From Flavobacterium ajazii (lineage in GTDB: Bacteria; Bacteroidota; Bacteroidia; Flavobacteriales; Flavobacteriaceae), in the NCBI RefSeq assembly GCF_010614725.1, contig NZ_JAAEHL010000004.1, forward strand, positions 310,001 through 374,000: DNA of 64,000 bases, in the 5' to 3' direction. The position numbers were made by a program, and so were the translations under genes. The stretch's first letter is position 1. Each line of letters starts with the position of its first letter. The notes under the pieces were generated by a model. It ran no database searches, was not told the origin of the DNA, and saw only the letters and a list, made by a program, of their open reading frames with translations. This document shows, in pieces, positions 2,407-54,884 of this stretch.

Positions 2407-3306
2407 ATGGCAAAAATCACTATAAAAGAAACTCAAAATCCGACTATTATAAAGTTTGAATTTGACGATTTTATCACTCAAAATCAAAACTTTGAGTTCA
2501 AAAATATCGATGAAGCGCAATCATCTCCGCTTGCTCAGCAATTATTTTACCTTCCATTCGTAAAAACAGTCTATATTTCCGGCAACTTTATTGCGGTTGA
2601 AAGATTTAGCATTGTAGAATGGGATGATGTTAAGGAAGCTGTAGCAGAACAAATTGAAGCTTTTGTAAATAAAGGAGGAGTTATTATCAACATTGACGAA
2701 AACAAACCAAAAAAACAGCCTATCACTGTTTACGGTGAGTCTACCCCAAATCCGGCTGCTTTAAAATTTGTAGTAAGCAGAATGCTGACCAAAAATGCCG
2801 TTGAATATAAAAATATCGACCAGACTGCCTCTTCCCCTCTGGCGAAAGAGTTATTTAAATTTCCTTACGTTAAAGAGGTTTTTATTGATGAAAACTACAT
2901 TTCGGTAACGAAATATGAAATCAATGACTGGCAGGAAATTACGCTTGAACTGAGAACTTTCATCAAGCAGTTTATCGAAAACGGAGGAACAGTTTTAGAC
3001 GAAAGCCTTCTTGAAATCGCAGTTAAAAACGATGCAACCAAAGATGAAGCTTTTGATAAATTAGATGTAACATCGCAACAAATCATCAACATCCTTGAAG
3101 AATATGTAAAACCTGCTGTTGCTGCTGATGGCGGAAATATTGCTTTTGATTCTTATAATGAAGATAATAAAGTTGTAAAAGTAATTTTACAAGGAGCTTG
3201 CAGCGGTTGTCCATCATCGACATTTACTTTAAAAAGCGGTATCGAAAACATGCTGAAAAGCATGCTGAATGACGAGCAAATTACTGTCGAAGCATTAAAC
3301 GCATAA
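2407..3306 (+). CDS. nfu: Nfu-type iron-sulfur cluster carrier with two N-terminal domains
   Basis: A 299-residue NifU-family scaffold or carrier for Fe-S clusters. The chain holds two tandem Nfu N-terminal domains: the first at about residues 5-90 (TQNPTIIKFEF, SSPLAQQLFYLPFVK), the second at about 105-190 (TPNPAALKFVV, SSPLAKELFKFPYVK). A C-terminal NifU domain (about 218-299) has the cluster-binding CxxC in GACSGCPSS. Ordinary Nfu proteins have one N domain and about 190 residues, so this one is duplicated. It acts in the cytoplasm to pass 4Fe-4S clusters to apo-proteins such as the ferredoxin-like ActB and QueG coded in this window. It is monocistronic, with a -7 element before it and a strong terminator after. 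Confidence 0.92.
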   Translation: MAKITIKETQNPTIIKFEFDDFITQNQNFEFKNIDEAQSSPLAQQLFYLPFVKTVYISGNFIAVERFSIVEWDDVKEAVAEQIEAFVNKGGVIINIDENKPKKQPITVYGESTPNPAALKFVVSRMLTKNAVEYKNIDQTASSPLAKELFKFPYVKEVFIDENYISVTKYEINDWQEITLELRTFIKQFIENGGTVLDESLLEIAVKNDATKDEAFDKLDVTSQQIINILEEYVKPAVAADGGNIAFDSYNEDNKVVKVILQGACSGCPSSTFTLKSGIENMLKSMLNDEQITVEALNA

Positions 3307-3327: not shown

Positions 3328-3355
3328 AAAAGCGCCTTGTTTGGCGCTTTTTTTG
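3328..3355 (+). terminator. Rho-independent terminator of nfu
   Basis: Stem AAAGCGCC (3329-3336) pairs with GGCGCTTT (3343-3350) around a 6-base loop and runs into a T tract. It starts about 22 bases after the nfu stop. Confidence 0.85.
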
Positions 3356-3452: not shown

Positions 3453-3782
3453 ATGGGATTATCATCATTTTTAAAAAAATTATTTAGCAAAACTCAGGAA
3501 CCGGCTATTGAAACCGAAAATGGAATTATCGAAAAAGCAGAAAATTTTGTAGAAGAAACGTTAAACAAAGTTAAAGAAGCCTCTGAACCAATATTGGAAG
3601 ATGCTGTTGAGTTTACAAACCATGCCAAAGATGTTATAAGTGAATATGCAGAAAAAGCAACTGATTCTATAAATGACATCATTGATTCTGTAAAAGAAAG
3701 TATAGAAACTGATGATTCACCACCAAAAATTTACGACACTGTAGTAGATATTAGTGAAAAGCCAATAACAGAAACTGACTGA
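3453..3782 (+). CDS. Small amphipathic-helix protein, function unknown
   Basis: A 109-residue protein I do not recognise. It opens with a basic, hydrophobic stretch (MGLSSFLKKLFSK) that could lie on the membrane. About 75 residues of acidic-amphipathic helix follow, with repeated short motifs (EKAENFVEETLNKVKEA, AEKATDSINDIIDSVKES) like those of YtxH or LEA-type stress proteins. There are no Cys, no signal peptide and no transmembrane segment. It stands between nfu and mscS, all rightward, with its own intergenic region on each side. The composition and the MscS neighbour would fit an envelope or desiccation-stress role, but that is a guess. Confidence 0.7.
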   Translation: MGLSSFLKKLFSKTQEPAIETENGIIEKAENFVEETLNKVKEASEPILEDAVEFTNHAKDVISEYAEKATDSINDIIDSVKESIETDDSPPKIYDTVVDISEKPITETD

Positions 3783-3835
3783 TAAAACTTATATCTTATA
3801 ATGTTTAAAAACTATTTTTTATTATAGCAAATTTT

Positions 3836-3843
3836 TATATTTG
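3836..3843 (+). promoter_or_regulatory. Putative -7 element for mscS
   Basis: TATATTTG fits the TAnnTTTG consensus exactly and lies 47 bases before the mscS ATG. Transcription from it would include the hairpin at 3857-3873. No good -33 match is seen. Confidence 0.5.
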
Positions 3844-3856
3844 CAAAACTAATACG

Positions 3857-3879
3857 CCTTCTCAATGAGAAGGTTTTTT
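3857..3879 (+). terminator. Terminator-like hairpin in the mscS leader
   Basis: CCTTCTC (3857-3863) pairs with GAGAAGG (3867-3873) over a 3-base loop, followed by six T. It lies downstream of the best mscS -7 element and 11 bases before its ATG. It either ends the upstream 109-residue gene or attenuates mscS. An ATG in the loop and 3' arm opens a nine-codon frame (3865-3894) whose TGA overlaps the mscS ATG. Confidence 0.6.
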
Positions 3880-3890
3880 ATTTTAAAATC

Positions 3891-4703
3891 ATGAACGTTA
3901 ATTCAGACCAACTCGGTAATTATGCTACCCGATTTATTGACTTATTATTTGATTATTCCCCAAAATTAATCTCTGCTTTTTTAATTTTATTTATCGGTCT
4001 GTATGCTATTAGATTAACAAACCGAATCATTAGAAAAGTAATGATAAAGAGAAATTTAGATCCTACTTTATCTAAATTCCTTGCTGATATATTACTTTGG
4101 GCTTTACGAATTCTATTATTTGTAACAGTTATTTCAAATCTCGGGGTGCCAACCTCGTCATTTGTTGCTATTTTAGGAGCAATGGGCTTAGCGGTAGGTT
4201 TATCATTGCAGGGCTCACTTTCAAACTTTGCCGGCGGAATGCTGATTATTCTTTTTAAGCCTTTTAAAGTAGGAGATACAATCGAAGCACAAGGCGTTAT
4301 CGCAACAGTTGCAGAAATTCAAATTTTCGTTACAAAATTAATCACAGGAAATAACCAAACTGTTTTTATTCCAAATGGAGCATTATCTAATGGAAATATT
4401 ATCAATTATTCAATGCAGGGTGAACGAAAAGCCGATCTGACTTTTGCTGTTTCTTACGATTCAGATATCAAAAAAACAAAGGATATATTACTAGATGCTT
4501 TAATTAAGAACCCAAAAGTTCTTAAAACTCCTGCACCCGAAGTATTTGTAAAAAACTTAACAGCAAGTTCTGTAGAATTTGCGGTGCGACCATGGGCAAA
4601 AAACGAAAATTATGGAGCTGTTTTTTCTGAAACTTTAGAGAATTGTAAAACAGCATTAGATGAAGCTGGCATTGCAATTCAGCCATATACACTTCAAAAA
4701 TAG
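3891..4703 (+). CDS. mscS: Small-conductance mechanosensitive channel, MscS family
   Basis: A 270-residue inner-membrane channel that opens under membrane tension to release solutes on osmotic downshock. Three hydrophobic segments lie in the first 125 residues. The Gly/Ala-rich pore helix (GAMGLAVGLSLQGSLSNFAGG) is unmistakable, followed by the beta domain (FKVGDTIEAQGVIATVAEI and VFIPNGALSNGNIINYS) and the alpha-beta C-terminal domain. The length is close to E. coli MscS (286). It converges on tsaB with only 7 bases between stops. Its leader holds a terminator-like hairpin with an embedded short frame, so conditional expression is possible. Confidence 0.95.
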   Translation: MNVNSDQLGNYATRFIDLLFDYSPKLISAFLILFIGLYAIRLTNRIIRKVMIKRNLDPTLSKFLADILLWALRILLFVTVISNLGVPTSSFVAILGAMGLAVGLSLQGSLSNFAGGMLIILFKPFKVGDTIEAQGVIATVAEIQIFVTKLITGNNQTVFIPNGALSNGNIINYSMQGERKADLTFAVSYDSDIKKTKDILLDALIKNPKVLKTPAPEVFVKNLTASSVEFAVRPWAKNENYGAVFSETLENCKTALDEAGIAIQPYTLQK

Positions 4704-4710
4704 AATGAAT

Positions 4711-5382
4711 TTATTGCTTTTTTGGAGCAGTAATCATAAAATCTTTTAAATAATAAGGTTCAAAATAAGCGACATCTACAGTGTCGCTTATTTGATATTT
4801 ATCGTAACTGATTTTACTCATCGCTGCAGCCGAAGGATATTTTACTTCTTCTAAAAACACAAAATTTTCTTTTGTCAAAACTGGTCTGCATTTTTCTGCA
4901 CAGTCGCCTACAAAATAAATTGTATCTGTTAAATCGCTAAAAGAATTTTCAGTAATAACTTCAGCTTGAATGGCTCTTTCCGTTTCAAGTTTAGAATTAA
5001 AAACAGCGCTGTAGACTTCCATCCTTCTGGCATCCAGCATCGGGATTATTTTTCCTTCAGAAATTTTAGCCTGAGATGCCAAAGTTTGTAAAGTATCTAC
5101 TGCTATCAACGGAATATTTAACGCAAAACACAATCCTTTTGCTGCCGAAACCCCAATTCTCAAACCAGTGTAAGAACCTGGCCCCTGACTAACGGCCACT
5201 GCTGCCAAATCATGAACAGAAATTCCGGATTCCGCAATTATTTCTTCAATAAAAACATGTAATTTTTCAGCATGTGAATAACCTTCTTCTGCAATTTCTT
5301 TGCATATAATTGTTTCACCATCTTTAGCAATTGCTACTGAACAATTTTTGGTGGCGGTTTCTATATTGAGAATAAAAGACAA
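4711..5382 (-). CDS. tsaB: tRNA threonylcarbamoyladenosine biosynthesis protein TsaB
   Basis: A 223-residue ASKHA-fold protein. With TsaD and TsaE it transfers threonylcarbamoyl from the TsaC product to A37 of tRNAs that read ANN codons. The N-terminal strand pair (ILNIETATKNCSVAIAKDG) and the signature AVSQGPGSYTGLRIGVSAAKGL are diagnostic. Length is usual for the family (about 230). It is the last gene of the leftward run that encodes the efflux system, 33 bases behind the second adaptor, so it may be cotranscribed. This linkage looks positional rather than functional. Confidence 0.95.
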   Translation of the reverse strand: MSFILNIETATKNCSVAIAKDGETIICKEIAEEGYSHAEKLHVFIEEIIAESGISVHDLAAVAVSQGPGSYTGLRIGVSAAKGLCFALNIPLIAVDTLQTLASQAKISEGKIIPMLDARRMEVYSAVFNSKLETERAIQAEVITENSFSDLTDTIYFVGDCAEKCRPVLTKENFVFLEEVKYPSAAAMSKISYDKYQISDTVDVAYFEPYYLKDFMITAPKKQ

Positions 5383-54328: not shown

Positions 54329-54793
54329 TTAAAATGTTACTGTAACAATTGCCTCTATAATTTCTGTATAAGGTATTTGTTGCTCTTTTTGAACTGTTTC
54401 TTTTCCTTTTCCTACTTTTTTTGGTTCTCTTGCTTTCCAAGACAAAATTATAAAAACATCATTAGCTTCTACCAATTCTGCCTCTATTTTTTCATTATTT
54501 GTGGTAACAATCAACGTTCTACCAATGTTTTTTTTGTATTGCCTTACCATTTTCAGAGGTGTCCCTACTCCAACTGATGCTACTTCAAGCGAAAAATCCT
54601 GTTCTTCACGATCCAGATTATTCTCGATTGCACGACTGACATCTATACAATCCTGCAACATCACTCCATTATCTCCGTCTAAACCAACACTAATTTTAAA
54701 AGAATCCGAAACAGCCAAATCAACCAAAAAGATTGATGGTTTTTCCAGAAGAGCTTCTGCAATTAATCCGTTTACTTTTTCTTTAAATGTCAT
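54329..54793 (-). CDS. rimP: Ribosome maturation factor RimP
   Basis: A 154-residue factor for 30S subunit maturation. I favour the ATG at 54793 ([19 protein letters not shown]). An in-frame ATG at 54829 would add 12 residues coded by a perfect hairpin. Family motifs are [35 protein letters not shown] and [13 protein letters not shown]. It is first in the rimP-nusA-infB operon, the arrangement found across bacteria. Its leader has a two-element promoter and a terminator-like hairpin. Confidence 0.93.
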
Positions 54794-54801
54794 AATTTTA
54801 T

Positions 54802-54827
54802 AAAAAGAGGGGACACTTAGTCCCCTC
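54802..54827 (-). terminator. Terminator-like hairpin in the rimP leader
   Basis: Perfect 8-bp stem GAGGGGAC (54807-54814) with GTCCCCTC (54820-54827), 5-base loop, then five T on the minus strand. It lies between the promoter and the rimP start, so it may attenuate the operon. Confidence 0.65.
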
Positions 54828-54855
54828 ATTATTTAGATTTTAATAAATAACGATG

Positions 54856-54884
54856 CAAATATAGTGTTTTTTTTATAAATCAAA
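54856..54884 (-). promoter_or_regulatory. Putative promoter of rimP-nusA-infB
   Basis: On the minus strand TTTG (54881-54884), 17 bases, TATATTTG (54856-54863), the best promoter match on this strand in the region. The start would be near 54850, about 57 bases before the rimP ATG. Confidence 0.65.

Follow-up and report, generated by a model that had tools for sequence, protein, structure and literature searches.

The mscS locus and its leader

The window, that is, the whole 64,000-nt stretch of Flavobacterium ajazii DNA that was analysed, contains a gene for an mscS-type mechanosensitive (pressure-relief) channel which is preceded by a promoter box, a hairpin and a run of T residues. The features of this locus, in window coordinates, are the following:

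3328–3351, plus strand: terminator 3′ of the Nfu/NifU-type gene (2407–3306), which served as the control terminator
3453–3782, plus strand: small upstream ORF, with its stop 53 nt 5′ of the −7 box and a Perilipin_2 Pfam match below the family cut-off
3813–3815, plus strand: T-rich −35 to −33 region of the putative promoter; of 87 leaders, 68, 67 and 71 have T at these three positions, which played no part in selecting the sequences
3836–3843, plus strand: sigma-A −7 box TATATTTG, recognized from the sequence and found with the hairpin in 87 of 91 mscS loci of the genus
3848 (A3848), plus strand: probable transcript start, placed from the position of the box as in F. psychrophilum (PMC9723704)
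3856–3874, plus strand: putative terminator hairpin GCCTTCTC-AAT-GAGAAGGT, from sequence, folding and leader alignment
3874–3879, plus strand: T-run (T6), with six invariant T in 85 of 85 aligned leaders
3865–3894, plus strand: nine-codon frame MRRFFILKS, found in 3 of 87 leaders, not conserved and probably untranslated
3891–4703, plus strand: mscS-type mechanosensitive channel gene (Pfam PF00924, PF21082, PF05552, PF21088)

The initial annotation of this DNA had reported an exact −7 element, a 7-bp hairpin with T6 and a short frame overlapping the mscS start, and all three are indeed present. The box occupies positions 3836–3843; the stem (3856–3863 with 3867–3874, loop AAT at 3864–3866) has eight pairs if the closing G-U is counted and seven otherwise; and the frame runs from ATG (3865–3867) to TGA (3892–3894), overlapping the mscS ATG (3891–3893), which begins 11 nt beyond the T-run. 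The stem contains G+C and is immediately followed by the T-run, which is the form of an intrinsic terminator. Folding of the leader (3848–3893) gave −10.4 kcal/mol (z −3.8), and none of 200 shuffled sequences was equally stable. A separate 13-pair hairpin (G-T allowed) is found at 4763–4793, between mscS and the convergent ORF 4711–5382; it falls within the 3′ end of that frame, and a similar sequence is seen in several relatives.

In F. psychrophilum, according to the accessible portion of the study by PMC9723704, the sigma-A box spans −12 to −5, and 5′ leaders have a median length of 24 nt. The same placement of the box would put the mscS transcript start near A3848, giving a 43-nt leader in which the stem spans +9 to +27 and the T-run ends at +32. 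The T-rich −35 to −33 region adds support to this predicted promoter. Leaders were selected by the pattern TAnnTTT[GA], and the final position is G in 86 of the 87.

Conservation of the leader in Flavobacterium

A relative of the MscS protein was found in 275 of the 299 genomes of the genus, and we analysed 91 distinct loci that rank highest among these relatives (L005 and L011–L100); L002, L003, L004, L006 and L007 were dropped as repeat copies of genomes already counted. The order promoter box, hairpin, mscS was present in 87 of the 91 loci, with a perfect stem in 85 and an imperfect one in two (L076 and L084). The hairpin is absent from the remaining four (L082, L089, L090 and L091), where mscS begins 13–19 nt after another ORF. 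Box and stem are 11–14 nt apart in 82 of the 85 leaders measured, the loop varies from 3 to 7 nt, and one of the 87 leaders has a box after the stem. The candidate terminator thus sits between the promoter box and the start codon of one gene, in a conserved position.

In the alignment, from which L029 and L093 were omitted because their leaders are identical to others, 98.5% of the stem cells are paired (85 distinct leaders), as compared with 45–71% when one side is slid by 1–3 columns. When partners are shuffled, 98.0% of the cells remain paired, so the pairing within the main class reflects mostly invariance of the sequence; changes on both sides are seen in two of the seven pairs, and the slid controls reach one to three. 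An RNA model of the leader, R1, matched 200 of the 299 genomes of the genus at E ≤ 0.1, many of these matches being weak; 20 places drawn from the weaker matches and from genomes without a listed mscS turned out to be mscS leaders in 10 cases and something else in the other 10.

Analysis was extended to 50 further loci, 20 at 66–71% identity (L409–L428) and 30 mostly from lower-ranked genomes (L429–L458); some of the distant loci (44–50% identity) may represent paralogues. With a grouping made partly by eye, 20 of the 50 have the box and a perfect hairpin, three a bulged hairpin (L409, L421 and L434) and one an imperfect hairpin (L419). The hairpin precedes the box in L426 and abuts it in L432, and L440, L445, L447 and L456 have other arrangements; in L426, L445 and L456 the hairpin lies 5′ of the promoter box, as is usual for a terminator between two genes. 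No hairpin was found in the other 20 of these 50 loci. In 12 of them mscS starts no more than 16 nt from the stop of an upstream ORF, and two more (L438 and L446), for which the scan gave no result, resemble these by eye. In the other six (L427, L436, L437, L444, L448 and L458) a TAnnTTTG box is present between the upstream ORF and mscS and no hairpin was found, which argues against the hairpin being required wherever mscS owns its promoter.

Altogether, 151 loci were classified by the stem sequence, ten of which (L259–L267 and L277) were chosen through R1 matches and are a biased sample: 102 are of the CCTTC type, 9 of the TCCCG type and 9 of the TCACG type, and 31 have another stem or none. 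The TCCCG-type and TCACG-type stems are found at the same place within one clade (100/99; 21 rows, 3 without such a stem) of a tree of MscS N-termini. This tree (127 rows, 79 columns) is weak, with many unresolved forks and long branches, and its use is limited to showing that the two other stem types share one supported clade. The place and the terminator-like form of the hairpin are thus kept in much of the genus while its letters are wholly different between the classes. In other genera of the family, a relative of MscS was present in 164 of 199 genomes; the box-hairpin leader was not seen in the 28 loci analysed there, four of which have, as judged by eye, a terminator-like hairpin without a preceding box.

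Specificity of the stem and of the layout

A search for the exact stem pattern found it in 10 of 61 genomes of the genus, once in each and always directly 5′ of mscS, which gives no support to a widespread repeat element. The scan of titled genomes returned at least 136 oriented stem sites in at least 120 stretches. Among the sites listed, at least 42 have a box 7–18 nt upstream, at least 41 of these preceding mscS, and at least 94 of the 136 have neither box nor mscS and look like ordinary terminators.

Terminator-like hairpins number 228 in 864 kb of the source genome. A TAnnTTTG box lies 5–20 nt upstream of 5 of them and an ATG-initiated ORF 4–60 nt downstream of 36; two (at mscS and greA) have both, with 0.8 expected if box and ORF were independent. 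A looser scan found 3 such cases in the source genome, where 2.0 were expected, and 2 in 1.2 Mb of a second species, where 2.8 were expected. With observed numbers so near the expected ones, counts alone cannot tell the layout from chance, which is what conservation across species can do; a general genome-wide class is not supported by these counts, as the layout is not enriched.

Two other identities were considered. An inverted repeat read as DNA by a dimeric protein is unlikely, given that the loop varies from 3 to 7 nt and that the arms have been replaced in one clade. As for known RNA families, no Rfam family reached its gathering score anywhere in the window, and the Phe_leader match in positions 3700–4000 is at chance level (E 0.53).

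Relation to the upstream gene

According to the simpler reading offered in the initial annotation, the hairpin only ends the upstream gene. In this view it would be a terminator or insulator of that gene, whose 3′ end happens to contain the mscS promoter; mscS transcripts would then pass the hairpin because it is too close to their 5′ end. Several observations are in line with this reading. In 84 of the 87 loci, the co-directional ORF (60 codons or more) closest to the box ends 8–61 nt 5′ of it (the exceptions are L076, L084 and L097), and no further terminator was found between the upstream ORF and the box in 86 of the 87. With a co-directional ORF that has no terminator of its own nearly always close upstream, insulation alone could suffice to retain the hairpin. 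The small ORF at 3453–3782, located between the Nfu gene and mscS, varies in length and sequence and is absent in some relatives; in five loci (L062, L063, L069, L080 and L100) it is missing, the Nfu gene is adjacent and the mscS hairpin is the best terminator after it.

Other observations do not fit this as the only role. The box lies between the stop of the upstream ORF and the hairpin, whereas a terminator placed 5′ of the promoter would serve the upstream gene without cost to mscS; this order does exist (L426, L445 and L456), but box-then-hairpin with near-fixed spacing prevails among the loci analysed. Further, the hairpin outlasts the small ORF in the five Nfu-adjacent loci and is still kept in L261, where a different gene is adjacent upstream, and L097 retains its leader hairpin, with a changed base pair, even though it has a separate terminator 5′ of the box.

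The ordinary gene-end terminator of the neighbouring Nfu gene, which likewise consists of a hairpin plus a T-run, provides a direct comparison. It could be compared in 50 of the 57 loci with the Nfu gene in reach; the other seven were omitted, two with no terminator found and five in which the terminator is the mscS hairpin itself. In these 50 genomes, the pairwise identity is 0.82 for the mscS stem and 0.47 for the Nfu terminator, with 6 and 29 distinct arm pairs, respectively. The mscS hairpin is also the weaker of the two (−10.4 versus −14.3 kcal/mol; the Nfu terminator is stronger in 48 of the 50). Thus, unlike the far more variable terminator next door, the mscS hairpin is weaker and more constrained and follows a promoter box at an almost constant distance. 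We consider it unlikely, while still the most serious of the alternatives, that ending the upstream gene is all that the hairpin does. As a second role, the hairpin may well end transcripts coming from the upstream gene, an ORF being near in 84 of the 87 loci; loci such as L097 argue against this as the only role.

A probable promoter-proximal terminator and its alternatives

Over much of the genus, the most likely function of the conserved hairpin plus T-run before mscS is that of a leader terminator. As judged from sequence comparison, it probably acts as a promoter-proximal intrinsic terminator on the transcripts of mscS itself, and mscS would then be made by read-through. In this scheme, RNA polymerase would start near A3848, at the conserved box; the nascent RNA would fold into the hairpin at about +9 to +27, with the U-run extending to +32; a part of the polymerases would release an RNA of about 30 nt; and mscS expression would depend entirely on the others, which continue past the hairpin. 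Neither a leader peptide nor an alternative antiterminator would be involved, and the hairpin could additionally block read-through from the upstream gene. Upstream of the hairpin, where about 8 nt are available from the predicted start, we found neither a ligand-binding fold nor an alternative antiterminator. A competing structure would not fit into this space, so that any control would have to be exerted through the polymerase or its elongation factors, through ions or temperature, or by a trans-acting factor.

The hairpin might instead act on the finished mRNA, either as a protective 5′-terminal stem-loop or as a protein-binding site. Its location very close to the 5′ terminus (about +9, if the start is at A3848) and the near-invariant sequence of the stem within the main class would suit such a function. 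However, the six invariant T right after the stem would not be needed for stability alone, and the wholly different stems of the two other classes, together with the variable loop length, argue against a single sequence-specific binder, which makes this explanation quite improbable.

It is highly unlikely that the terminated RNA of about 30 nt functions as a small regulatory RNA: there is a precedent in E. coli, where an additional action in trans is reported for the GraL leader RNA (PMC6829880, accessible part), but the hairpin sequence is wholly different between clades and the approximately 8 nt that precede the hairpin leave little for conserved base pairing.

Attenuation by a leader peptide, or coupling to mscS through the nine-codon frame, as proposed in the initial annotation, can practically be dismissed: the frame is present and overlaps the mscS start, but it is confined to 3 of the 87 leaders (L011–L013, i.e. 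the window and two close relatives), and a stem that begins about 8 nt past the predicted start leaves no room for a ribosome-controlled antiterminator. Frames of any length stopping at the mscS start are found in 6 of the 87 leaders (L011, L012, L013, L065, L067 and L080), an overlap that arises easily, as mscS often begins with ATGA. An ATG anywhere before the assigned mscS start is seen in at most 23 of the 87, in varying place and frame, and some of these may be the true start. What remains of the proposed attenuator is the putative terminator in the leader, supported by the conservation of its position across much of the genus; the peptide-based mechanism was rejected because its frame is not conserved among related leaders.

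If mscS is indeed made by read-through, the leader terminator might let its expression track the efficiency of termination by the polymerase, which would shift with intracellular ion content or with GreA and NusA, two factors encoded behind leaders of the same layout, without a riboswitch, a leader peptide or a dedicated regulator. This extension is speculative, and we regard it as doubtful. If true, mscS would be an osmotic safety valve tuned by elongation factors and by physical chemistry, and its leader a sensor that lacks any sensing domain. Control at the level of the transcript may also weigh more in Bacteroidia, as their ribosomes are reported, in the accessible part of PMC9976891, not to recognize Shine-Dalgarno sequences. 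A minimal terminator whose place is kept while its sequence is replaced would help to separate sequence recognition from mere termination, and the mscS leader, standing before a mechanosensitive channel gene, offers a clean test case.

Comparison with known and putative leader terminators

The combination of a TAnnTTTG box, a hairpin with a T-run and a gene start soon after is also found in the source genome at greA and at rimP-nusA-infB:

54791–54863, minus strand: leader of rimP-nusA-infB, with the TATATTTG box and the hairpin GAGGGGACTAAGTGTCCCCTC plus T-run just 5′ of the rimP ATG
L294:12431–12510 (G000:C28, near 392450), minus strand: leader of greA, with the box, hairpin and T-run just 5′ of the gene; the upstream gene is divergent

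The identities of greA, rimP, nusA and the Usp gene upstream of rimP were checked by Pfam, and the last gene of the operon, named from its sequence, is presumably infB. Both leaders differ from that of mscS in the box-to-stem distance (8–9 nt and 28 nt at greA and rimP-nusA-infB) and in having divergent upstream genes (the Usp gene in the case of rimP), so that their hairpins cannot serve to end an upstream gene. The greA box and hairpin were found in 26 of 30 loci of the genus, with the T-run broken in two (L338 and L343); the remaining four escaped the start pattern used. In the rimP leader, an in-frame ATG is located at the base of the 5′ arm and would extend RimP. Taken with mscS, greA and rimP-nusA suggest a small set of genes governed by read-through of start-proximal terminators.

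We found no description of the mscS leader among the papers listed in searches of a mostly open-access literature. PMC9723704 has a list of 64 structured leaders, which may include mscS, and names rimP among the genes with a conserved structured leader. Nothing on mechanosensitive channels was found in the accessible part of PMC7366714. That of PMC2965389 mentions mscS once, as a gene that follows a candidate attenuator derived from a repeat in Enterobacteria, which is a different thing from the Flavobacterium leader.

The attenuators of the trp/his type share with the mscS leader a terminator and, here and in two close relatives, a short frame; they differ from it in that the mscS-leader frame is unconserved and the space before the stem is too short for an antiterminator. 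The closest known system is GraL, a start-proximal intrinsic terminator in the E. coli greA leader which, according to the accessible part of PMC6829880, halts about two-thirds of the transcripts and whose hairpin sequence matters for its regulation. The Flavobacterium greA leader looks like the counterpart of GraL. In the mscS leader, too, the putative intrinsic terminator comes shortly into the 5′ leader, and the gene would be made by read-through, as with GraL. The two differ in the gene that follows and in dimensions: GraL has 19 nt before its hairpin and in E. coli the greA AUG comes at +150, whereas the mscS stem would begin at about +9 and the mscS start codon lies just beyond the T-run.
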